Source of the DNA: Dehalococcoidia bacterium
Lineage (GTDB): Bacteria; Chloroflexota; Dehalococcoidia; Dehalococcoidales; UBA1222
DNA: 33,306 bases
NCBI GenBank assembly: GCA_003597995.1
Contig: QZJY01000025.1
Span: 1 to 33,306 of the forward strand
Direction: 5' to 3'
Position 1 is the stretch's first letter; each line of letters begins with the position of its first letter. A program made the translations under genes and the position numbers. The notes under the pieces were generated by a model, which searched no databases, had not been told where the DNA came from, and worked only from the letters and a program-made list of their open reading frames with translations. Positions 13,847 to 23,907 of the stretch are shown here, piece by piece.

Positions 13847-16507
13847 CTAATCTGCCAGGCTTATTATTTTCTCCTTGACAGTGGATGTTTTGCTGCCTGC
13901 CAGGACAGTCGACTTCAACGGCTGAACCTTGCGATAGACCTCACTGTACAGCTTGCGTTCTCCCTTTACGGTGAGCAGGTCGTTCTCAACCGAGATACCG
14001 AAGAGTTTTTCGTTCTCCGCGAGGTATGGCAGTATCAGCTCCCAGTCAGCCTGAGAGGGCGTGGCGATTTCCCCGCCGTTGAGCTGCTCGTCAACCACTT
14101 TGCCGTGCGGGTCGCGCACGTAAATGGCACCGCCTGAAGCCAGCGAAAAAAGGTTGGAGCCGGGGTAAGGTGAATTCAACTCCTTGACCTGCCCGCTTTT
14201 TTCGTCGAATTCCATCCCGTTGAGGATGACAAATCCTCCACCCTTGAGCGGGTCACCCGCCATGAAAGATTCCGCCAGGAAGTCTAGGCATGTGCCGTTG
14301 ATAACCACCCTTGGGCGGCCCACGGCGTTGATGAGGGGGCGTCCGGCGGCATTGCCCATGATATACACCTCGCCGCCTTTGGCGCCGTACATAAAGGTCT
14401 GCCCGACGTCTCCGTATACCACCAGTTTGCCGCGCTTCATTATCTGACCGAGCTGGTCCTGAGCGTTGCCGTGGACTCTTATCTCCATCCCATCTATGCC
14501 CGAAGCCAGATAATCGCCAGAACTGTCATATACGTCTATGCGCACACCGTCGGTTTCCTTACCCAGCCCGCAGCCGGTGAAACGCTGGCCGCGGTAGCCG
14601 TAACAGATGAAGCTGCGCCATCCCTGCTGGAAAGCCGCGACTATATAGCGCGCGTCGCAGTCCTCACCTTCCGGCGGGAAATCCCGCGCGTCAATTACCA
14701 GCACCTTCTCGTTCCCAATAGGCGCTCCGAGCGTGCCGCGGCCGGCAAAGTTCAAACGGCGGTATTTCCCAACGGAATCCGTGTTGAAGCCGGGAACGGC
14801 GTCGAGCAAACGGTGCAGGGCATCTCGTATTATCTGCAACACCGAGCTGCGCTTTTTATCGCCGGTGGTGTATCTGCGGTCGTTCAAAGAGGTGAGGATA
14901 TCGATAGCCGCCGCTCTGGCTTTATCACTTTCCTGCCCCACTGTTACAAGTTCACTGCTTAGAAAAATGAGCGAGGCGTAGTTCCATTTATTCATGTTTC
15001 GCACAAAATAACTTAGGAGCTCGCTGTTGTCCGCCGCTGCCAGTGCGCTCCTTACAGCCTGGGATATGGCCTGGCGACTCACCGGAGCATCATAGTCAGA
15101 CGGAGCTTTAAAAGCTCTCTGGCCGGGTGGAACAGTGACACTCTCGCCAAACTTATTGGCGCAGGAGAGAATCTTACTGCCATCTCCTCTCCCCGAGTCG
15201 CGGACGGTGAACACGAAAGCCCCGCCGTCGGTGGCGCTGCCGCCGCGGGCGTTCCAATACTTGTCGGCGATTGGCCTGAAACGGTGATCCTCCCGCGAGA
15301 GGCTCTCCAGCGCGGCATCGATAGACTGCTTTTCCGAGCAGATGAAACCTATCTGCACTTCGCCCTCCTGGAGAGCGAATACCTGCGGCCTCAGCATGGA
15401 GGTGTCGGTAATGCCGATAAGCTGATGGTAATGTTTGTACGGGTTGTTACGGGCGATGATGAAGAACCACGGTCCGTCCGGCGAGGCCGGCAAGTGAGTA
15501 GATTGTATGTGTTTATAGATATGCTGTTTCTCAGGCAGCAACTGGTCGAAATCGTACTCAGATGTAGGAGCCATGGCTTCGATTATATACTCCAGCGGAT
15601 AGCCGAAAACGCGGTTCCACAGGTCGAAGAGTTGCACCGAGACTTCGGTATCGGTAAGGAACTGCTGGCGAATGTTGAACTGTTTCAAATATTCGGTTAT
15701 GGCATAGTAGTTGGCAAAGTCGCCGTTATGCACTAGCGCCTCGTCCATGCCGATAAACGGATGCGCACCGCCCGGGTGCCACACGCGTCCTTTGGTAGGA
15801 TAACGCTGGTGAGCTATCCAGCCGTACGCCTTGAAATCCTCCAGCCTGTAGTACTGCGCCACCTGTTCGGCATAGCCCACGATTTTAAGTATCATAATAT
15901 CGCGTCCGTGAGACAGTACGAAGGCACGTTTTTCAACCAGAGACGAGTAGTATTTCTGATTAAGACGGAAGGAGTTCTGCGAGATGAACTCGTCTTCGGC
16001 ATTGCGCACGTCCATATCGGACAGCTTGTTCTCAGCTACAAAACGCTTCAAGACGTCGGGTTTAACACGCACGAAATAACGCATGACGTCCGGCGGCCGT
16101 ACCTCCAGGCCTTTTACCTCACGGTAATCCGCCATGTGAGGCACCTCGGAGGCTTTATGCACATCGAGGAATGGAGTTATAAACTCGGTTTCTATCTCGG
16201 AGCGAGCAGAGGCATCGAGAAGCGCCACTTGCAGCAGATAATGGCTATCCAGCACCTCCTGTGATACTCCCAGGTCGGCAGCGGAAAGGCCCACCGCCGC
16301 GATGCCGCCGCCTTTGCCGTTGCCGCGGTTATGCATCTGCACCGAGGGCTCCATGATATGCCGGCCGCTCACCGGGACCGAGGCGATAAATCCGGTGACA
16401 CCGCAACCGCCTTCTTCCGCCGCTTTCCTCTCACCGGAATCGACATACGGTAACGCGCCCCGCGAGGCGAGAACTCTATCTATTATGGAATCATTGTCTT
16501 GAGCCAT
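13847..16507 (-). CDS. Fused class-II glutamine amidotransferase / GXGXG glutamate synthase domain protein
   Basis: An 886-residue protein made of two parts that archaeal-type glutamate synthases keep on separate genes (GltB1 and GltB3). The N-terminal part is an Ntn-type glutaminase. It has the catalytic Cys in GGCGVTGF (C35, so a 34-residue propeptide is expected to be cut off), then AHQRYPTKGR, HNGDFANYYA (260-269) and TDTEV (285-289). A linker of about 150 residues follows. The C-terminal part, from about residue 590, is the GXGXG beta-helix (GRGTLGAPIGN, MKRGKLVVYGDVGQTFMYGAKGG). It would release ammonia from glutamine and pass it to an FMN partner, presumably the product of the gene 8 bases upstream. 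It is last in the mvhD-metVF-glt operon. Confidence 0.87.
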   Translation of the reverse strand: MAQDNDSIIDRVLASRGALPYVDSGERKAAEEGGCGVTGFIASVPVSGRHIMEPSVQMHNRGNGKGGGIAAVGLSAADLGVSQEVLDSHYLLQVALLDASARSEIETEFITPFLDVHKASEVPHMADYREVKGLEVRPPDVMRYFVRVKPDVLKRFVAENKLSDMDVRNAEDEFISQNSFRLNQKYYSSLVEKRAFVLSHGRDIMILKIVGYAEQVAQYYRLEDFKAYGWIAHQRYPTKGRVWHPGGAHPFIGMDEALVHNGDFANYYAITEYLKQFNIRQQFLTDTEVSVQLFDLWNRVFGYPLEYIIEAMAPTSEYDFDQLLPEKQHIYKHIQSTHLPASPDGPWFFIIARNNPYKHYHQLIGITDTSMLRPQVFALQEGEVQIGFICSEKQSIDAALESLSREDHRFRPIADKYWNARGGSATDGGAFVFTVRDSGRGDGSKILSCANKFGESVTVPPGQRAFKAPSDYDAPVSRQAISQAVRSALAAADNSELLSYFVRNMNKWNYASLIFLSSELVTVGQESDKARAAAIDILTSLNDRRYTTGDKKRSSVLQIIRDALHRLLDAVPGFNTDSVGKYRRLNFAGRGTLGAPIGNEKVLVIDARDFPPEGEDCDARYIVAAFQQGWRSFICYGYRGQRFTGCGLGKETDGVRIDVYDSSGDYLASGIDGMEIRVHGNAQDQLGQIMKRGKLVVYGDVGQTFMYGAKGGEVYIMGNAAGRPLINAVGRPRVVINGTCLDFLAESFMAGDPLKGGGFVILNGMEFDEKSGQVKELNSPYPGSNLFSLASGGAIYVRDPHGKVVDEQLNGGEIATPSQADWELILPYLAENEKLFGISVENDLLTVKGERKLYSEVYRKVQPLKSTVLAGSKTSTVKEKIISLAD

Positions 16508-16515
16508 GGCTTTTC

Positions 16516-18066
16516 CTAAATGACCAGTTTATTCTTGGGTGCCTCTGGGTATTTCGACCTCTCAGCCTCATCAAGGTAGTCCATGTTGACCAGAAGGTCG
16601 CTCCGGCCAACGAGTTCTTTCATGCTGCGTAAACCGTACTGGCGCAGCAACTGGCACCACTGCTTGCGCCAGGCGAGGTACATATTCACAATACGCTGTT
16701 CGGCATATTCTTCGTTGATCATATACCCCAGCTCGGGGTCGGTAGAGGCGATGCCGCGGGCGCAACCCCGTCCGCTCTCGCACTTGCCACAGCGGATGCA
16801 GTCCAGCGCCACCAGGTCGGCCGTGCCGATGACCACACCGTCAGCCCCCAGCGCTATTGCCTTGGCCGCGTCCATGGCGTTCCTGATGCCGCCGCTGGCC
16901 ATAAGGCATACCTGATCGCGGATGCCCTCTTCCTTGAGAAAACGGTGTATGCGCGGAATGGCGTATTCGATGGGCATGGCGATATTCTTTTTGGCGATGT
17001 CGGGCGCCGCTCCGGTGCCGCCGTAGCTGCCGTCGAAGTGTATGATGTGGGCACCGGCGTAATAGCTGCCGACGGCCACCATGTCCGCATCGCTGGGCGT
17101 GGATACCTTAATGGAGACAAGGGCGCGGGGGTTGATTTCCTTAATCCAATCCACGTGTTTTTTGTGGTCTTCCACCGAATAGACGCTATGGAAAGGGAAA
17201 GGCGAGAAAAGAGAACTGCCCACCACCGTCTCGCGGATGGCGGCTACTTCAGGGGTCACTTTATCCCCTAAGAGGTGCCCGCCGAGTCCCGGCTTGGCGC
17301 CCTGGGCATATTTGAACTCTACTACCGGGGCGTTCTGAATGGTTTCCTCGCGCACGCCGAAAAGTCCGGTGGCTACCTGGGTAACCACATGCTCGGCATA
17401 CGGCAAAAACTCCGGCGGATATCCGCCCTCGCCGGTGCAGGTCATGGTGTTCAGGCGTGTAGCTGCCCGCGCCCGGCCCACTATCACCGGCAGAGCCGTC
17501 GAACCGAAGGACATGCCTCCGCCGTAGCATGGCAGCGACAACACCTTCTGCGGACGGCCGTCACCGCGGCGGTTGAGGTTCAGGCTGGTATCGATGTCCT
17601 CATCGTTGATGTCGAGATAATCCGCCGCATCGGGAATACGGAAACGCATTTTGTCGAAACCGCCGCCTGATGAACCCAGTGAATATTCCAGGTCCACTCG
17701 GGGAAGCTCGCCGGTCTCGGCCATGTGCCAGTGCCCGATGAGCATCTCCGGAGTCCAGCGGTAGTCGCCCAGTGCCTGCAGCGTCGGGTTCAAGTTCACG
17801 CTGAGCGCCTGGTTGGGGCAGCGCTTCACGCAGTAAAAATCGTTACCGGCGCAAGCGGTTCCGATACACAGATGCGAGCGCGGCGGCAGGGGCCTGGAGT
17901 AGCCCTCAGGTTTGATATGCACGCCATAGGGGCAGAGCTCGGCGCACAGGCCGCAAGCGGCGCAGCGCGAGTTGCGTTTAACTAAATACTTGCCGATGGG
18001 GTTGCGGAAGCGCGAAGGAGTGTTCACGGATTCAGGCAATATATTTTTAGTTTTGATGGTATTCAT
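16516..18066 (-). CDS. FMN-binding glutamate synthase domain protein with ferredoxin clusters (GltB2 type)
   Basis: The 516-residue protein starts with a ferredoxin-like region holding CxxCxxCxxxC (C35, C38, C41, C45) and a second Cys set (C67, C72, C79, C83). The FMN-binding barrel of glutamate synthase follows, with YGGGMSFGS (181-189), GEGGYPPEF, QGAKPGLGGHLLGDKV (255-270), DGSYGGTGAAPD (345-356), SGGIRNAMDA and GADGVVIGTADL. The iron-sulfur loop is CIRCGKCESGRGC (423-435). All catalytic landmarks are intact. The ATG at 18066 is used: the open frame extends 131 codons upstream but there it only overlaps the preceding gene in another frame. The start lies 4 bases after the preceding stop, so coupling is likely. 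It should condense 2-oxoglutarate with ammonia, with electrons through its Fe-S centres. Confidence 0.88.
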   Translation of the reverse strand: MNTIKTKNILPESVNTPSRFRNPIGKYLVKRNSRCAACGLCAELCPYGVHIKPEGYSRPLPPRSHLCIGTACAGNDFYCVKRCPNQALSVNLNPTLQALGDYRWTPEMLIGHWHMAETGELPRVDLEYSLGSSGGGFDKMRFRIPDAADYLDINDEDIDTSLNLNRRGDGRPQKVLSLPCYGGGMSFGSTALPVIVGRARAATRLNTMTCTGEGGYPPEFLPYAEHVVTQVATGLFGVREETIQNAPVVEFKYAQGAKPGLGGHLLGDKVTPEVAAIRETVVGSSLFSPFPFHSVYSVEDHKKHVDWIKEINPRALVSIKVSTPSDADMVAVGSYYAGAHIIHFDGSYGGTGAAPDIAKKNIAMPIEYAIPRIHRFLKEEGIRDQVCLMASGGIRNAMDAAKAIALGADGVVIGTADLVALDCIRCGKCESGRGCARGIASTDPELGYMINEEYAEQRIVNMYLAWRKQWCQLLRQYGLRSMKELVGRSDLLVNMDYLDEAERSKYPEAPKNKLVI

Positions 18067-18070
18067 ATAA

Positions 18071-19477
18071 TCACCCGCATGGTACTTTTCTCTGCCCGAA
18101 GATGGGCGCGAAGCTCTCTCTTTCGAGGTCTTCCAGGAACAGGGCGCGCCCCACCTCGCCGCGCAGGCGGCGCACCTCGCGGATGCCGCAGGCTCCCATA
18201 ACCTCCAGAAGCTGGTTATGCCAGGCGCCGATAAGATTGACGATGCGTTGTACCCCCCAGGCGACATAGATGTCCCCGATGTCCACCGGGCAGGATTCGC
18301 CTCGCTTGCAGCGCCCGCACAGACGGCATTCAAGGGCGATGAGCATGGGAATGTCCACCACCACCCCGTCGGCCCCGCAGATGACAGCCTTGGCCATATG
18401 CTCGGCCATGGCGATGCCGCCGGAGAAGAGAAGATTGACTGTAGGACGCACCTTGCCATCCACCAGCTTGCGGTGGATCTCGCGTATCATATCGCGCAGG
18501 GTGCGCGGGTTGGAAGAACCTGTTTCGCGGCCGTTGTCTTCGGCATAAAAATGCAGCACGTCCACGCCGGTGCCCGTTAGTTCGAGAGCGCGCGAGGCCG
18601 CCGAGGCGTCAAGCGGCAGGCCGACCGAGATGAGCAATCCGGGTTTGAAACCGCGCAGCGTGGCAAATTCGCGCTCTATTCCGGATGAGTCGACCATCTC
18701 GACCATCCGGCTCTTGCAGATTATGTCAACATATTCCTTATAATTAGCCGCGTCCAGCCTGGGCACCATGGTGCCGTCAAACCCGGTGAAAGATGAGGAA
18801 TAATCTTTCGCATCGATGAGCATCAAAGTATGCAGCTTTTGCGCCGCCCCGGCCATGGCCAGCAGCTCCTTCTGGCTCAGCACGCCGAAAGCGGGCGGCT
18901 GCAAGATCACAGGGAGAGGGATTTCCACGATTTCGGGAAGTGATACTGGTAAATTCCCTTCCTTATCGAAGATGAGCCTCATCGGCTTGCGTGAAAGCTC
19001 TATGGAGGTGCTGATATACTCGCGCCCGTGGATGCCATCACGCGTGGGGCGCACGATTTCGGACATATCGGTCCACATGGCATCGAAACCCGCGCCACTG
19101 AACAGCCCACGGTAACCCGCGCCGGAAACTGGAATTCTTCCGGTGTGGGCCTGGAACCAGGTCTGGTTGATGATTTCGGGCTGCCAGTACTCGTCGCCCA
19201 TGAGCGTGTATTCCGGATTGATGACGGGTGAAAAAATACCCTTGGTGCATTCTTGCACGCAGCGGAAACAGCTCTGGCATATATAGAGAAACTCCGGCTC
19301 ATCCATGGTGATGACGTGCTGGTAGCTATCCTTGTAGACGTTGTAGACGCACTTCTTCTTGACGCACTGCCGGCAACTTCCGGCGCAGTCCTCGCGGAAC
19401 TCCACCGTTGAAAACTTGCCCACCGCCAGAAAACGCGGCGGCGCGGCTTTCGTCTCTATATGATATTTTTTAGGCAT
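18071..19477 (-). CDS. Divergent glutamate-synthase-like Fe-S flavoprotein
   Basis: The 468-residue protein is a distant paralogue of the following gene. N-terminal Cys sets C31/C35/C38/C43 and C67/C70/C73/C77 suggest two 4Fe-4S clusters. A barrel of the FMN-binding glutamate synthase type follows (SGGIAMAEHMAKAVICGADGVVVDIP) and ends in CRLCGRCKRGESC (384-396), the counterpart of the glutamate synthase Fe-S loop. The GGTG motif and the QGAKPGxGG motif of true glutamate synthases are missing; AEDNGRETG (312-320) stands where DGxxGGTG would be. It probably still binds a flavin and clusters but may not make glutamate. An electron-transfer or non-standard catalytic subunit is my inference. It is 11 bases downstream of metF. 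Confidence 0.78.
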   Translation of the reverse strand: MPKKYHIETKAAPPRFLAVGKFSTVEFREDCAGSCRQCVKKKCVYNVYKDSYQHVITMDEPEFLYICQSCFRCVQECTKGIFSPVINPEYTLMGDEYWQPEIINQTWFQAHTGRIPVSGAGYRGLFSGAGFDAMWTDMSEIVRPTRDGIHGREYISTSIELSRKPMRLIFDKEGNLPVSLPEIVEIPLPVILQPPAFGVLSQKELLAMAGAAQKLHTLMLIDAKDYSSSFTGFDGTMVPRLDAANYKEYVDIICKSRMVEMVDSSGIEREFATLRGFKPGLLISVGLPLDASAASRALELTGTGVDVLHFYAEDNGRETGSSNPRTLRDMIREIHRKLVDGKVRPTVNLLFSGGIAMAEHMAKAVICGADGVVVDIPMLIALECRLCGRCKRGESCPVDIGDIYVAWGVQRIVNLIGAWHNQLLEVMGACGIREVRRLRGEVGRALFLEDLERESFAPIFGQRKVPCG

Positions 19478-19488
19478 ATCGCTAATAC

Positions 19489-20418
19489 CTACTTCATCGG
19501 ACGCGGCATCAGTCCGGCGGCCTTTACCAGATCGGGTACTCGTTCCTCGGCTTCGATGGCCATGATGTGTATACCTCTAACACCGGGGATAGCCCGCAGC
19601 TCGGCGATAGTCTCAATGGCAATTTTCAAACCTTCCTCAACTGCCTTCGGTCCGGTCACCCCCGCCATGCGTTTAATAACTGCTTCGGGCACATCCATTC
19701 CGGCGACCTTCGTCGCCATGAACTGCGCCATTTTAGCTGACTTGAGAGGCGTGATGCCCGCCAGGATGTATACCTTTTCCGTCAGTCCTTCTTCCCGCGC
19801 CATCCGCATCCATTCCCTGAAACGCGGCAGGTCATAAACGCACTGCGTCTGGATGAAATCGACACCTGCGGCGATTTTCTTGGCCAGCCGCACCACGCGG
19901 TAAGACAACGGGTCGGCAAAGGGGTTCTCGGCGGCTCCGATAAACATTTCAGGCGCGCCGTTCAGCGCGAAGCCGCTCATGTCTTTGCCCTCGTCGCGCA
20001 TGACGCGCACGGCATGCACAAGATTGACCGAGTCGATATCGAACACATTTGACGCTTCCGGCTGGCTGCCCAGGCTCTGATGGTCGCCTGAAAGGCACAG
20101 CATATTGCGAATCCCCAGAGAGTAGGCGCCTATGATATCCGACTGCAGCGCGATGCGGTTGCGGTCTCGCGTGACCATCTGCATAACGGGCTCGATGCCC
20201 AGCTCTAACAGGTGCAAACAGGCAGCCAGGCTGCTCATTCGCACCACAGCCGTCTGGTTGTCGGTGACGTTCACCGCATCCACGCAGCTTTTGAGCCACT
20301 CGCCCTTCCTGTGTATAATCTCAGCATTGGCGCCCCTGGGTGGCCCGCACTCCGCGGTTACCGCAAAGCCCCCGCCGGCAAGGACGCTTTTAAGTTTGCT
20401 CGCTCCGTCGCTTTTCAT
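19489..20418 (-). CDS. metF: Methylenetetrahydrofolate reductase (MetF)
   Basis: TIM-barrel flavoenzyme of 309 residues that reduces 5,10-methylene-THF to 5-methyl-THF. The folate and FAD barrel motifs are present: AVTAECGPPRG, DAVNVTDN, QMVTRDRNRIALQSDIIGAYSLGIRNMLCLSGD, GVDFIQTQCVYD and ILAGITPLKSAKMAQFM. It overlaps metV by four bases (ATGA) and is thus coupled to it. The MetV partner marks it as the acetogen-type MetVF form, which in Moorella works with HdrABC-MvhD rather than directly with NAD(P)H. In this locus it may supply methyl groups to the Wood-Ljungdahl carbonyl branch or to methionine synthesis. Confidence 0.94.
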   Translation of the reverse strand: MKSDGASKLKSVLAGGGFAVTAECGPPRGANAEIIHRKGEWLKSCVDAVNVTDNQTAVVRMSSLAACLHLLELGIEPVMQMVTRDRNRIALQSDIIGAYSLGIRNMLCLSGDHQSLGSQPEASNVFDIDSVNLVHAVRVMRDEGKDMSGFALNGAPEMFIGAAENPFADPLSYRVVRLAKKIAAGVDFIQTQCVYDLPRFREWMRMAREEGLTEKVYILAGITPLKSAKMAQFMATKVAGMDVPEAVIKRMAGVTGPKAVEEGLKIAIETIAELRAIPGVRGIHIMAIEAEERVPDLVKAAGLMPRPMK

Positions 20419-21083
20419 ATAACGTGGTCCTCTCGTAGTAAGCGGCGCGGCCCGCCGGCCAGACTGGGACGCCAGTCCTTGGCCGGGATATAGCGCTTCA
20501 AATTACCTTGCAGCCCCAGGGCTGTCAGACGGTCGATAATAAGCTGCCAGGCGCAGTCTATATCGGGGCTGACTTCGCACTTGCCGTTCTTCGACCCTCC
20601 GCAGGGCCCGTTCATCAGGCGCTTGGAGCAGCGCGTCACCGGGCAGATACCCCCGAAGGTGTCCAGATCGCAGTCGCCGCAGCCAGAGCATTCTTCAGTG
20701 AATAAACCGGGTTTTTCCAGAACGCCGATAAAAGTCGTATTTACTCCGGGAAGCAGTACAGATTTAGCAAAGCGCCGTGCCATGGCCTGAACGCCGGCCC
20801 CGCAGGCTAAAGAGAGTACGGCTTCGTTACGCGCCACTGCTTGCGCCGCCTCCTGTATGAAGGCATCCTCACACTGGCGCTCTACGGTCAGCTCCTCGGT
20901 CTCAATGGACTTGCTCTCCTGGCCGAAAGCTAGGCGGAGAGCCGCGCCCAGAGTGGCTGCTTCGTCCTCTCCGCCGGCAAAGCACGTCTTGACGCAGGTG
21001 CCGCATCCCAGGATGAGCACTTTCTGGTAAGGCCGCAGCATCTCTTTTATTTCAGCGATAGGTTTCTGTTTGGCGACTATCAT
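20415..21083 (-). CDS. metV: MetV, iron-sulfur/zinc partner of MetF (MTHFR C-terminal domain)
   Basis: Cys-rich protein of 222 residues. The N-terminal part has LGCGTCVKTCFAGG (C27, C30, C34) and the C-terminal part has ECSGCGDCDLDTFGGICPVTRC and LMNGPCGGSKNGKC. This matches the MetV/methylene-tetrahydrofolate reductase C-terminal family, which carries Fe-S clusters and a zinc site and forms a tight complex with MetF. Its end overlaps the metF start. It links MetF to an electron donor other than NAD(P)H; the neighbouring mvhD-like and Fe-S flavoprotein genes are candidates. Confidence 0.88.
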   Translation of the reverse strand: MIVAKQKPIAEIKEMLRPYQKVLILGCGTCVKTCFAGGEDEAATLGAALRLAFGQESKSIETEELTVERQCEDAFIQEAAQAVARNEAVLSLACGAGVQAMARRFAKSVLLPGVNTTFIGVLEKPGLFTEECSGCGDCDLDTFGGICPVTRCSKRLMNGPCGGSKNGKCEVSPDIDCAWQLIIDRLTALGLQGNLKRYIPAKDWRPSLAGGPRRLLREDHVI

Positions 21084-21136: not shown

Positions 21137-21550
21137 CTATCTGGGACTAGCTTGCGCGGCCGGCTTAACCGGATTGGGTCCCAGTTCTGCCAGTCCTTTT
21201 AGCAGAAGAGTTATGGCAGCGTCCGTGTCACTGCTGGCGGTATAAACTAGCCTCTTGCCGCCCAGGCCTATCTCATCCAGCAGTTTTTGCACCCAGGCAA
21301 CGCGTTTGGCTGCCCGAATATTGCCGTCGACGCGCTTACATCTGCCGGCAGGGCAGCCTACGACCATCACTCCGTCAGCGCCACATTCGAAGGCTTTCAG
21401 CATGAAAATATCTTTGATCATGGATGAGCAGGGCATTTTCACGCTTTGTATGCGAGCAGCCTTTTCCGGGTCCTGCGTAGAAAAAACGCCCCGGTCTAAG
21501 GCGTTTACACAGAAGAACACGTGTATCTTTGGTTCGAATTTGCTGCTCAT
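21137..21550 (-). CDS. mvhD: MvhD/FlpD-type hydrogenase iron-sulfur subunit (heterodisulfide reductase delta-like)
   Basis: The 137-residue product fits the FlpD/MvhD family, small 2Fe-2S proteins that carry electrons to HdrA. The signature GADGVMVVGCPAGRCKRVDGN (57-77) is clear, with Cys at 14, 41, 66 and 71. The usual CNWC near the N-terminus is reduced to a single Cys (FFCVNALD). The ATG at 21550 matches the family start (MSSKFEPKIH). An ATG ten codons upstream is also possible; neither has a strong ribosome binding site. It is first in the operon, 53 bases before metV. No hdrA is seen in the window. Confidence 0.85.
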   Translation of the reverse strand: MSSKFEPKIHVFFCVNALDRGVFSTQDPEKAARIQSVKMPCSSMIKDIFMLKAFECGADGVMVVGCPAGRCKRVDGNIRAAKRVAWVQKLLDEIGLGGKRLVYTASSDTDAAITLLLKGLAELGPNPVKPAAQASPR

Positions 21551-21685
21551 ATATCTATCACAGCCTTCAGTGCCTGTCATTTTACTGCTTCTTGAGACAG
21601 CTTAACGGCAACAATTCCCGTAAACTGATTCTGCTCAGGCTGATAAACCATCAGGATACGGTATATGGTTGCCGATAGTGAATTT

Positions 21686-21870: not shown

Positions 21871-23868
21871 CTAGCGAATGAGCGAGATCAGACCGGTGCT
21901 CAGGGCTACCGCCGCGATAACAGCGGCAACAAAGACCAGCACGATGATAACGGTGAGTTCGCGCGAACCGATAATTCTCTTGATCAACTCTCTCAGGTTT
22001 TCTTCATTGCGCAGGGCTTCCTCAGCCTTTTCCTGGGCTTCTTTGGCGGCACGCTCGGCAGCAGCCATGGCGCGCGCACTGGCTTCCTCAGCCCTGCGCG
22101 CGGCGTCTTCCGCCGCCCTCTTGGCTTCTGCTGCCCTGGCGGCGGCGCCTTCGCCCACGCTGCGGGCAGAGTTGGCCGCATCCTTAGCTTCGCGTGCAAC
22201 AGCTTCCGCGCGGCGGGCAGCTTCTTCGGCGGCTTTGCGCGCGTCTTCAGCGGCTTTCTTGGAGGCTTCGGCCGCCTCCTTGGCGGCGCGGATGGCCTCC
22301 TCCGCCTCTTTGGTCGCTTTGGCGGCTGCATCCCTGGCAACCATTTCAGCCCGGAGGGCGGCTGCCTCAGCGGCCTTGCGCGCGTCTTCGGCGGCTTTTT
22401 TGGCAGCTTCCGCTGCCTCCCTGGCGGCGCGAATAGCCTCTTCAACGCCTGTAGCGGCGCTGGCGGCGGCTTCCTTGGCGACCGCTTCGGCGCGCCGGGC
22501 GGCCGCCTCAGCAGCCTTGCGCGCGTCCTCGGCGGCCTTTTTGGCAGCTTCCGCTGCCTCCCTGGCGGCGCGGATGGCCTCCTCGGCACCGGTGGCAGCT
22601 TCGCTGGCTGCCGTCTGGGCTGCTTCAGTAGCTGTTTTCGATGCCTGAATGGAGGCTTTGGCGGCGGCCTCAGCGGCCTTGGCCATATCCTCGGCCATGG
22701 CCACCAGTTTGTGCAATGCCTGAGCGGAGGCCTGGATGGCTTCATCACCCAGCAGGTCCGCTGCTTCGGCCTTCTTGAACGCCTTGTCGGCTACGTCGTA
22801 TCCTTTTGTGGCCGCTGCCTTGGCTTCAAGCCCGGCCGTTTCAACTCTTTCGGCCACCTTTCCACTCACTCTTACCGAAGCTTCTATAGCTTCGTCGCCG
22901 GCGATATCGGCCAATGCAGAGCGGCGACGTACATCCTCGGCAGCCTGGAAAGTGGCGGATGCCAGTCTCTTGCTCTTCCTGCCAGCTTCATCGGCCTTGA
23001 TGGCAGTTTGAGCGGTGATATGAGCAGCCAGCTCAGCCCTGGCGGCTTTGACCTCTTTGGCGCTGTCGTCAGCCTCTTTGGCTGATTTATTGGCTTTTTC
23101 AATGGCCGCAAGCACGGCGGCTTTGGCTGCGCTGGCAGCTCCTTCTGCCCGGGCGGCAGTTTCACCGGCGGCCTTGGCTGCTGCTGCAGCGGCTTCTCTG
23201 GCAGCCAGTTCAACTTCCTCGGCTTTACGCGCTGCTTCTTCCGCGGCATACTTGGCCCCGCGTGCCGTTTCCTCCGCTTTAAGAGCGGCCTTTTCGGCTT
23301 TCCTGGCAGCTTCTTCCGCAGCCAGCGTGGCGCTCTCGGCGGCCTTACGGGCCATAGCGATGGCTTCGGCGGCAGCTTTCTTGGCGGCTTCGGCGGCCTC
23401 TCTGGCGGCCTTTACAGCTTCTTCCGCCCCCAGGATGGCTTTTCGGCTGGCTTCTTCGGCACGCCGGGCGGCTTCATCGGCCGCTTTTTTAAAGGCTTCC
23501 AATGCCCTTCTGGATTCCCTGTCGGCTTCTTCGGCCTTGCGGATGGCTTCTTCAGCGGCCAGCTTGGCGGCCTTGGCCTGCGCCTCAGCCTTGGCGGCGG
23601 CTTCCTGAGCAGCGCGGGTGGCTGTCTCAGCCGCTTTTTCTCCAGCCTGCCGGGCTTCTATCGCCCGGGCTTGAGCCTCTTTGGAAGCCTTGGTGGCTGA
23701 AAGGGCAGCTTCACGCGCCAGTTTGGCGGCTTCCTCGGCCCTGCGGGCGGCTTCGGTTGCCGCATCGATATTGCTGTCCATCTCATCGAGTATCTGGGGC
23801 AGCGGTTTGCTCATTATTTTTATGTGTTCGGCGGCCTTCTTCACGGGCTCAGTAACTTTTGGCGACAT
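21871..23868 (-). CDS. Ala/Glu/Lys-rich helical repeat protein with C-terminal membrane anchor
   Basis: I do not recognise a named family. The 665-residue protein is almost entirely amphipathic helix of the type AARRAEEAAKLAREAA, dominated by Ala, Glu, Lys and Arg with no Cys. It resembles LEA-like, tropomyosin-like or apolipoprotein-like helices more than leucine-zipper coiled coils. Residues 427-567 form three 47-residue near-identical repeats. A second pair of similar segments (GDEAIEAS, GDEAIQAS) lies mid-protein. It ends with one hydrophobic segment (ELTVIIVLVFVAAVIAAVA) near 637-660 and no N-terminal signal, so it should be tail-anchored with the long domain in the cytoplasm. The ATG at 23868 is chosen for AAGGAGGA six bases upstream. 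It has its own promoter and terminator. Confidence 0.85.
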   Translation of the reverse strand: MSPKVTEPVKKAAEHIKIMSKPLPQILDEMDSNIDAATEAARRAEEAAKLAREAALSATKASKEAQARAIEARQAGEKAAETATRAAQEAAAKAEAQAKAAKLAAEEAIRKAEEADRESRRALEAFKKAADEAARRAEEASRKAILGAEEAVKAAREAAEAAKKAAAEAIAMARKAAESATLAAEEAARKAEKAALKAEETARGAKYAAEEAARKAEEVELAAREAAAAAAKAAGETAARAEGAASAAKAAVLAAIEKANKSAKEADDSAKEVKAARAELAAHITAQTAIKADEAGRKSKRLASATFQAAEDVRRRSALADIAGDEAIEASVRVSGKVAERVETAGLEAKAAATKGYDVADKAFKKAEAADLLGDEAIQASAQALHKLVAMAEDMAKAAEAAAKASIQASKTATEAAQTAASEAATGAEEAIRAAREAAEAAKKAAEDARKAAEAAARRAEAVAKEAAASAATGVEEAIRAAREAAEAAKKAAEDARKAAEAAALRAEMVARDAAAKATKEAEEAIRAAKEAAEASKKAAEDARKAAEEAARRAEAVAREAKDAANSARSVGEGAAARAAEAKRAAEDAARRAEEASARAMAAAERAAKEAQEKAEEALRNEENLRELIKRIIGSRELTVIIVLVFVAAVIAAVALSTGLISLIR
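22168..22590 (-). repeat. Three 141-bp tandem in-frame repeats in the helical protein gene
   Basis: Three consecutive 47-codon units each encode (G/E)xEEAIRAAxEAAEAxKKAAEDARKAAExAA and a variable end. The first two copies are closest to each other; the third carries more substitutions. The unit length is a multiple of three, so copy-number change would keep the reading frame. Confidence 0.85.
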
Positions 23869-23907
23869 TTTCTTCCTCCTTAACCCTGAAAACACTCAGA
23901 CAAAAAC

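Follow-up and report, generated by a model that had tools for sequence, protein, structure and literature searches.

A contig of a Dehalococcoidia bacterium (QZJY01000025.1; the window, i.e. the whole stretch analyzed, comprises 33,306 nucleotides) carries two adjoining genes of the glutamate synthase family, one of them intact and the other without the motifs of an active enzyme, which raises the question of what the product of the second gene contributes. A sequence-only reading had proposed a duplication followed by a change of function, either to an electron-transfer subunit or to a new substrate.

A glutamate synthase paralogue in a six-gene operon

The open reading frame in question (P0001) is real, its boundaries are exact at 18071-19477, and it represents the fourth of six tightly packed genes on the minus strand, arranged in the order MvhD-MetV-MetF-P0001-GltS-glutaminase with intergenic gaps of 53, -4, 11, 4 and 8 bp:

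21137..21580, minus strand: MvhD/FlpD-type iron-sulphur protein (PF02662, E 2.4e-21)
20415..21083, minus strand: MetV, Fe-S partner of MetF (PF12225, E 5.7e-36)
19489..20418, minus strand: MetF, methylenetetrahydrofolate reductase (PF02219, E 2.1e-37)
18071..19477, minus strand: P0001, putative dead-barrel partner subunit, placeholder name GlxA, 468 aa (ORF and translation)
16516..18066, minus strand: GltS (P0002), intact FMN glutamate synthase subunit with an N-terminal ferredoxin-like region, 516 aa (PF01645, E 1.8e-87)
13847..16507, minus strand: glutaminase plus GXGXG subunit, 886 aa (PF01493, E 9.4e-14)

The 886-aa subunit additionally matched GATase_6 slightly under the Pfam cut-off (E 2.4e-5) as well as NCBIfam models of the glmS/purF glutaminase type. 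P0001 itself was recognized above the cut-off by PF01645 over residues 331-432 only, the C-terminal quarter (E 5.9e-12), and gave no match to NCBIfam or to the Pfam family of the GltS central domain (PF04898). P0002, which begins 4 bp downstream and had correctly been read as an intact paralogue, carries all three catalytic motifs (GGMSFGS, QGAKPGLGG and DGSYGGTGA) and is 27.5% identical to P0001 over 440 aligned positions. Just upstream of the operon, positions 21871-23895 (minus strand) encode a protein of 674 aa that is rich in alanine, repetitive and coiled-coil-like, with a hydrophobic segment at the C-terminus; a similar protein occupies the same place relative to the operon in locus L004 (1779-3677).

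A scan of GTDB genomes yielded 80 related loci with 44-82% identity, nearly all of full length, from Dehalococcoidia, Desulfobacterota, Syntrophorhabdus-like bacteria, Nitrospirota, Verrucomicrobiota, Acidobacteria and Planctomycetota MAGs. The alignment used for column counts comprised 79 of these 80 loci and, together with P0001 and P0002, defined the following features of P0001:

19247..19387, minus strand: N-terminal dicluster ferredoxin-like region with C31, C35, C38, C43 and C67, C70, C73, C77 (Cys present in 77-78 of 79, the remainder being gaps)
19007..19132, minus strand: near-invariant front loop, residues 116-157, PVSGAGYRG...GFDxMWTDMSEIVRPTRDGIHGREYIST (most positions 79/79)
18683..18700, minus strand: place, from E260, at which active GltS has QGAKPGxGG and about 45 residues that P0001 lacks (joint alignment)
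18518..18544, minus strand: AEDNGRETG, residues 312-320, where P0002 has DGSYGGTGA (alignment)
18353..18376, minus strand: GADGVVVD, residues 368-375 (position 375: D in 68/79, N in 8/79)
18290..18328, minus strand: C-terminal Fe-S motif C384xxC387xxC390x5C396 (78-79 of 79)

The alignment bore out the losses of GGTG and QGAKPGxGG and the exchange of DGxxGGTG for AEDNGRETG that had been read from P0001 alone, as well as the retention of three sets of cysteines and of the barrel end (SGGIAMAEH...CGADGVVVD). The twelve Fe-S cysteines follow the patterns C31xxxC35xxC38x4C43, C67xxC70xxC73x3C77 and C384xxC387xxC390x5C396, the last of which is the counterpart of the 3Fe-4S site of GltS with one extra Cys. 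GGMSFGS is missing as well, with no conserved motif at its position in the family, and D375 stands where active GltS has Gly-Thr, the presumed FMN-phosphate site. GxKPGxGG, GGTGA or MSFGS-like motifs were present in 0/79 aligned orthologues, and since none of them carries a catalytic motif anywhere, the GGTG equivalent has not simply been displaced. Judged by its alignment, P0001 is thus a member of the glutamate-synthase barrel family whose catalytic motifs are lost in every aligned relative.

Loss of these motifs would be expected of a decaying duplicate, but residues that are near-invariant across phyla (among them 116-155 in the 79 aligned relatives), intact reading frames and strict co-occurrence with GltS speak against this explanation, to which we assign a negligible probability; decay is refuted by the conservation. 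The segment replacing GGTG, for which an absence of conservation had been named as a sign of decay, is indeed conserved, not letter for letter as AEDNGRETG but as HxxADxxGxE (H309 in 76/79, D at 313 in 70/79, G316 in 79/79 and E318 in 64/79).

One locus (L144:200-1750, minus strand, genome G082) differs in that its operon GltS contains two in-frame TGA codons, the first of which stands in place of the fourth Cys ligand of the C-terminal Fe-S site (CVRCSRCESGRG-TGA-PRGIATTD). Either selenocysteine or damage may account for them. No clear tRNA-Sec gene was detected in G082 (the best candidate scored 46.3 bits and was read by ARAGORN as tRNA-Ser), and the genome of the window (G000) has a clear one (C26:19258-19347, 75.3 bits, ARAGORN tRNA-SeC).

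Association with one class of glutamate synthase

The gene that follows encodes GltS in essentially all of the 80 loci. The association extends to gene fusions, as the P0001 homologue precedes GltS within one in-frame chain in a deltaproteobacterium (L076, 969 aa), in a verrucomicrobium (L078, 988 aa) and in several Chloroflexota. Among 301 Chloroflexota genomes, six contain a P0001-type gene and the same six hold this class of GltS (E <1e-200); the next class of GltS (E 1e-105) occurs without a P0001-type gene. Taken together, the comparative evidence makes it very probable that P0001 is a dedicated partner of the downstream GltS, and it is most likely a fixed non-catalytic partner subunit rather than a decaying gene.

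The upstream genes are also frequently maintained. Of the 53 loci with sufficient sequence, 52 have MvhD no more than 3 kb upstream; MetF was located there in 46 and MetV in 39. In L039 and L040, MvhD adjoins the P0001 homologue and MetV is positioned downstream of the glutaminase gene, together with MetF in L039. P0001 could accordingly form a methylene-THF reductase complex together with MvhD, MetV and MetF, with glutamate synthase as no more than a neighbour in the operon, since MetF is located directly upstream in most loci and MvhD-MetVF modules of the Moorella type are known (PMC5736913, PMC7325909). However, the fusions and the co-occurrence involve GltS and not MetF, L065 and L078 possess MvhD with no MetF nearby, and the cluster-poor homologues described below have no MetF nearby, all of which renders this reading highly unlikely.

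Genes for nitrogen assimilation (GlnA, type III glutamine synthetase, AmtB or GlnK) adjoin the operon in about 20 loci, so that the operon points to ordinary nitrogen assimilation. This context bears on the proposed new substrate, according to which P0001 would be an active enzyme on a remodelled barrel. The complete eight-strand barrel of the structure model and the conservation of HxxADxxGxE and SGGIAMAEH would be compatible with such an enzyme, but the motifs of the FMN face and for 2-oxoglutarate are gone in all members and kept in the neighbouring GltS, the presumed phosphate site is occupied by D375 or N, the position of GGMSFGS is not conserved as a motif, and the protein is always tied to GltS. 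The chance of a new substrate is consequently considered very remote.

The front loop and the classical central domain

The central domain and the synthase domain of classical GltS line the ammonia tunnel, and the central domain is a truncated barrel that may derive from duplication of the FMN barrel, although such an origin is debated (PMC8097209, PMC5011417). Comparison of family profiles revealed a complementary loss between P0001 and the operon GltS: the P0001 family has kept the front loop (SGAGYRG...SEIVRPTRDGIHGREYIST..GRKP) and lost the catalytic motifs, whereas the operon GltS has kept the catalytic motifs and lost the front-loop motif. Archaeal-type single-chain GltS unites the catalytic motifs with a front loop (GMGxD...SQVTNPSIDPLREPMEL..LGRKP) in one chain, while classical GltS exhibits the same split as the operon, with the loop (GSMGxDTP...QVTNPPIDPIRE) in the central domain and catalysis in the FMN domain.

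The front loop of P0001 was matched end to end by the profile of archaeal-type GltS (E 1.6e-8; score 44.6 against at most 17.1 in 40 column shuffles) and, as a weak pass, by that of the classical central domain (E 1.5e-4; score 26.0 against at most 15.5 in 40 shuffles). The operon GltS matched the same two loop profiles over the preceding helix only. Unlike these profile-profile comparisons, short single HMMs of the loop did not score significantly on the P0001 family. Over the whole protein, the P0001 family and the central domain could be aligned along 265 columns (E 8.5e-9).

AlphaFold2 predicted a complete eight-strand barrel for P0001 with 64 orthologues (pLDDT 77, pTM 0.80), with low confidence in the ferredoxin-like part and the invariant loop. 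The closest folds were the FMN domains of glutamate synthases (ranked first by VIA, Z 20-22). Foldseek matches to lactate oxidase, IMPDH and similar proteins were set aside, as they reflect the common barrel only. A fused model, for which natural gene pairs were read through their single stop, aligned in order with both the central and the FMN domain of each of the seven GltS entries, a result to be read with the tendency of the sequential aligner to lay the first barrel on the central domain regardless. Against residues 450-1183 of 1ea0 it covered 564 residues (Z 33.5) at an rmsd of 12 A, and together with a pTM of 0.57 this means that docking is not settled by the fused model.

In the phylogenetic tree, the P0001 family and the classical central domain grouped together with support of only 93/75, and a duplication within the P0001 family's own GltS lineage, as the alternative, was not rejected (p-AU 0.23); the tree is compatible with a single common duplication as well as with two independent events. 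The P0001 family and the operon GltS formed separate clades that each span many phyla, and the duplication is therefore old rather than local. The proposed duplication with changed function thus stands with respect to the paralogy, the loss of catalysis and a function kept among orthologues, in operon, fusions and co-occurrence, but not as a local event.

Based on the loop, the fusions and the whole-protein profile match, we consider it fairly probable that P0001 is not only the dedicated partner of GltS but also does the job of the central domain. P0001 would then be the non-catalytic subunit of a split glutamate synthase, with its own FMN/2-oxoglutarate active site gone and with its loop 116-157 replacing that of the archaeal-type chain or the classical central domain. 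Docked on GltS, it may complete the mouth of the active site along with the route by which ammonia arrives from the glutaminase subunit. The order of the fusions, P0001 followed by GltS, matches the order of central and synthase domains in classical GltS. Whether the central domain arose independently or from a duplicated FMN barrel that lost elements has been named as an open point in a recent review (PMC8097209), and a free-standing Fe-S protein with a complete barrel and a complementary loop that is tied to GltS represents a type of intermediate expected under the duplication idea.

A possible electron input and comparison with known systems

The genome of the window (95.5% complete) encodes a single MvhD, which is located in the P0001 operon. 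HdrA was detected neither in this genome nor in one of the same genus (G066), and in both only MvhD and stretches with ferredoxin domains or short flavin folds were matched; the usual partner of MvhD is therefore missing and another one is needed. A second MetV belongs to a MetF-MetV-like fusion protein of 553 aa (G000:C59:2227-2502, L110), which is perhaps the Wood-Ljungdahl enzyme and would free the MetVF of the operon for another role. In two other genomes a different dehydrogenase is found: in G178 (L143), the gene immediately upstream of the P0001 homologue codes for a GlcD-like FAD/Fe-S dehydrogenase, and a GlcD-like FAD and 4Fe-4S dehydrogenase is fused to the N-terminus of the homologue in G327 (L162:3074-6763, minus strand, 1230 aa). 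A glutamine synthetase gene is present near this fusion. In L071 (1-3450, plus strand), an incomplete protein of 1150 aa, perhaps HdrL-like, that combines Fer4 domains with two pyridine-nucleotide oxidoreductase regions is encoded just upstream of an MvhD-MetV-MvhD-MetF-P0001 homologue-GltS arrangement.

Closer inspection of Chloroflexota revealed ten cluster-poor homologues, seven of which lack all N-terminal cysteines and three of which retain part of them. Dicluster ferredoxins pair their ligands in two interleaved clusters. The three partial members (G128, G303 and G328) have lost exactly C31, C35, C38 and C77 and kept C43, C67, C70 and C73, as predicted by the loss of one of two such clusters. 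Some homologues without N-terminal clusters also lack the C-terminal cysteines, and in G096 and G128 the N-terminal ferredoxin part of the GltS is absent as well. MvhD, MetV or MetF were found near 0/10 of the cluster-poor homologues in the DNA covered, which extended 0.7 to 8 kb upstream. The invariant front loop is retained in all ten, as is the partner GltS. Clusters and dedicated donor genes come and go together but the front loop stays; the correlation with donor genes is not phylogenetically independent, as the cluster-poor members belong to related Chloroflexota lineages. The partner GltS in L164 (7273-9834, minus strand) and L165 (743-3313, plus strand) has three instead of four C-terminal cysteines (e.g. 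GCTRVGACEKGLGC), a pattern resembling the 3Fe-4S site in classical GltS.

These patterns divide the remaining proposal, an electron-transfer subunit. In its pure form, the barrel would be a scaffold for three clusters passing electrons from MvhD/MetVF to GltS, in line with twelve conserved cysteines, with MvhD as a neighbour in nearly every locus or another dehydrogenase upstream or fused in two genomes, and with an MvhD that needs another partner than HdrA. The homologues that lack the N-terminal clusters, and in some cases the C-terminal cysteines, but retain loop and GltS argue against it, and electron transfer is therefore not the sole role; as the entire function it appears not very likely. 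As part of the role, the idea is in keeping with the Fe-S clusters and the donor genes: where present, the clusters of P0001 may be an electron inlet from MvhD/MetVF, with P0001 as the putative docking point for this input in anaerobes.

For a non-catalytic GltS partner with this additional task in its Fe-S-bearing members, electrons would pass from MetVF via MvhD and the clusters of P0001 to the FMN of GltS, in place of GltD/NADPH, with the GlcD-like dehydrogenase as possible donor instead of MvhD/MetVF in the two other genomes. The physical complex, the ammonia path and the route and direction of the electrons are inferred; the wiring of MvhD/MetVF to P0001 is tentative, its chances falling a little short of even. 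The most far-reaching version, in which all six products form one complex, oxidation of methyl-tetrahydrofolate by MetVF (or the swapped-in dehydrogenase) drives glutamate synthesis through MvhD and P0001 without NADPH or free ferredoxin, and P0001 is the surviving full-barrel Fe-S form of the central-domain ancestor, is unlikely to hold as a whole. A full-text search of the open-access literature retrieved no description of an MvhD-MetVF-glutamate synthase cluster or of such a split GltS. That glutamate synthase is linked in a conserved manner with MvhD and methylene-THF reductase, here in a genus lacking HdrA, suggests an as yet undescribed means for strict anaerobes to power nitrogen assimilation, and the swapped or lost electron-input modules represent natural experiments.

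Among known systems, the HdrABC-MvhD-MetVF complex of Moorella thermoacetica likewise has MvhD, MetV and MetF genes together; the operon described here differs in the absence of HdrA from the genome and its same-genus relative and in the glutamate synthase genes that follow. P0001 resembles GltD, the NADPH-linked beta subunit, in that it would feed electrons to GltS via Fe-S clusters, but it is of an unrelated fold without an FAD/NAD(P)H domain (no Pfam match). By profile, its closest relative is the operon GltS (E 1.7e-60), which has the same domain order but, unlike P0001, intact catalytic motifs and no front-loop motif. Archaeal-type single-chain GltS (about 505 aa, e.g. L117; E 1.4e-43) shares the N-terminal ferredoxin-like region, front loop, barrel and C-terminal Cys motif with P0001, and differs in that its chain also bears the FMN/2-oxoglutarate motifs. 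The central domain of classical bacterial and plastid GltS alpha (PF04898; 1ea0, 1ofd) is, like P0001, a silent barrel related to the FMN domain, carries a front loop of the same kind, and is positioned directly N-terminal to the synthase domain, as P0001 is in its natural fusions (L076, L078 and others). While this domain is an incomplete barrel within a 1500-aa chain (PMC5011417, PMC8097209), P0001 is a separate chain of about 470 aa with a predicted complete eight-strand barrel and up to three Fe-S clusters. With the front loop and the partner GltS kept even in cluster-poor homologues, the irreducible role of P0001 looks structural or active-site completing, like that of the classical central domain.
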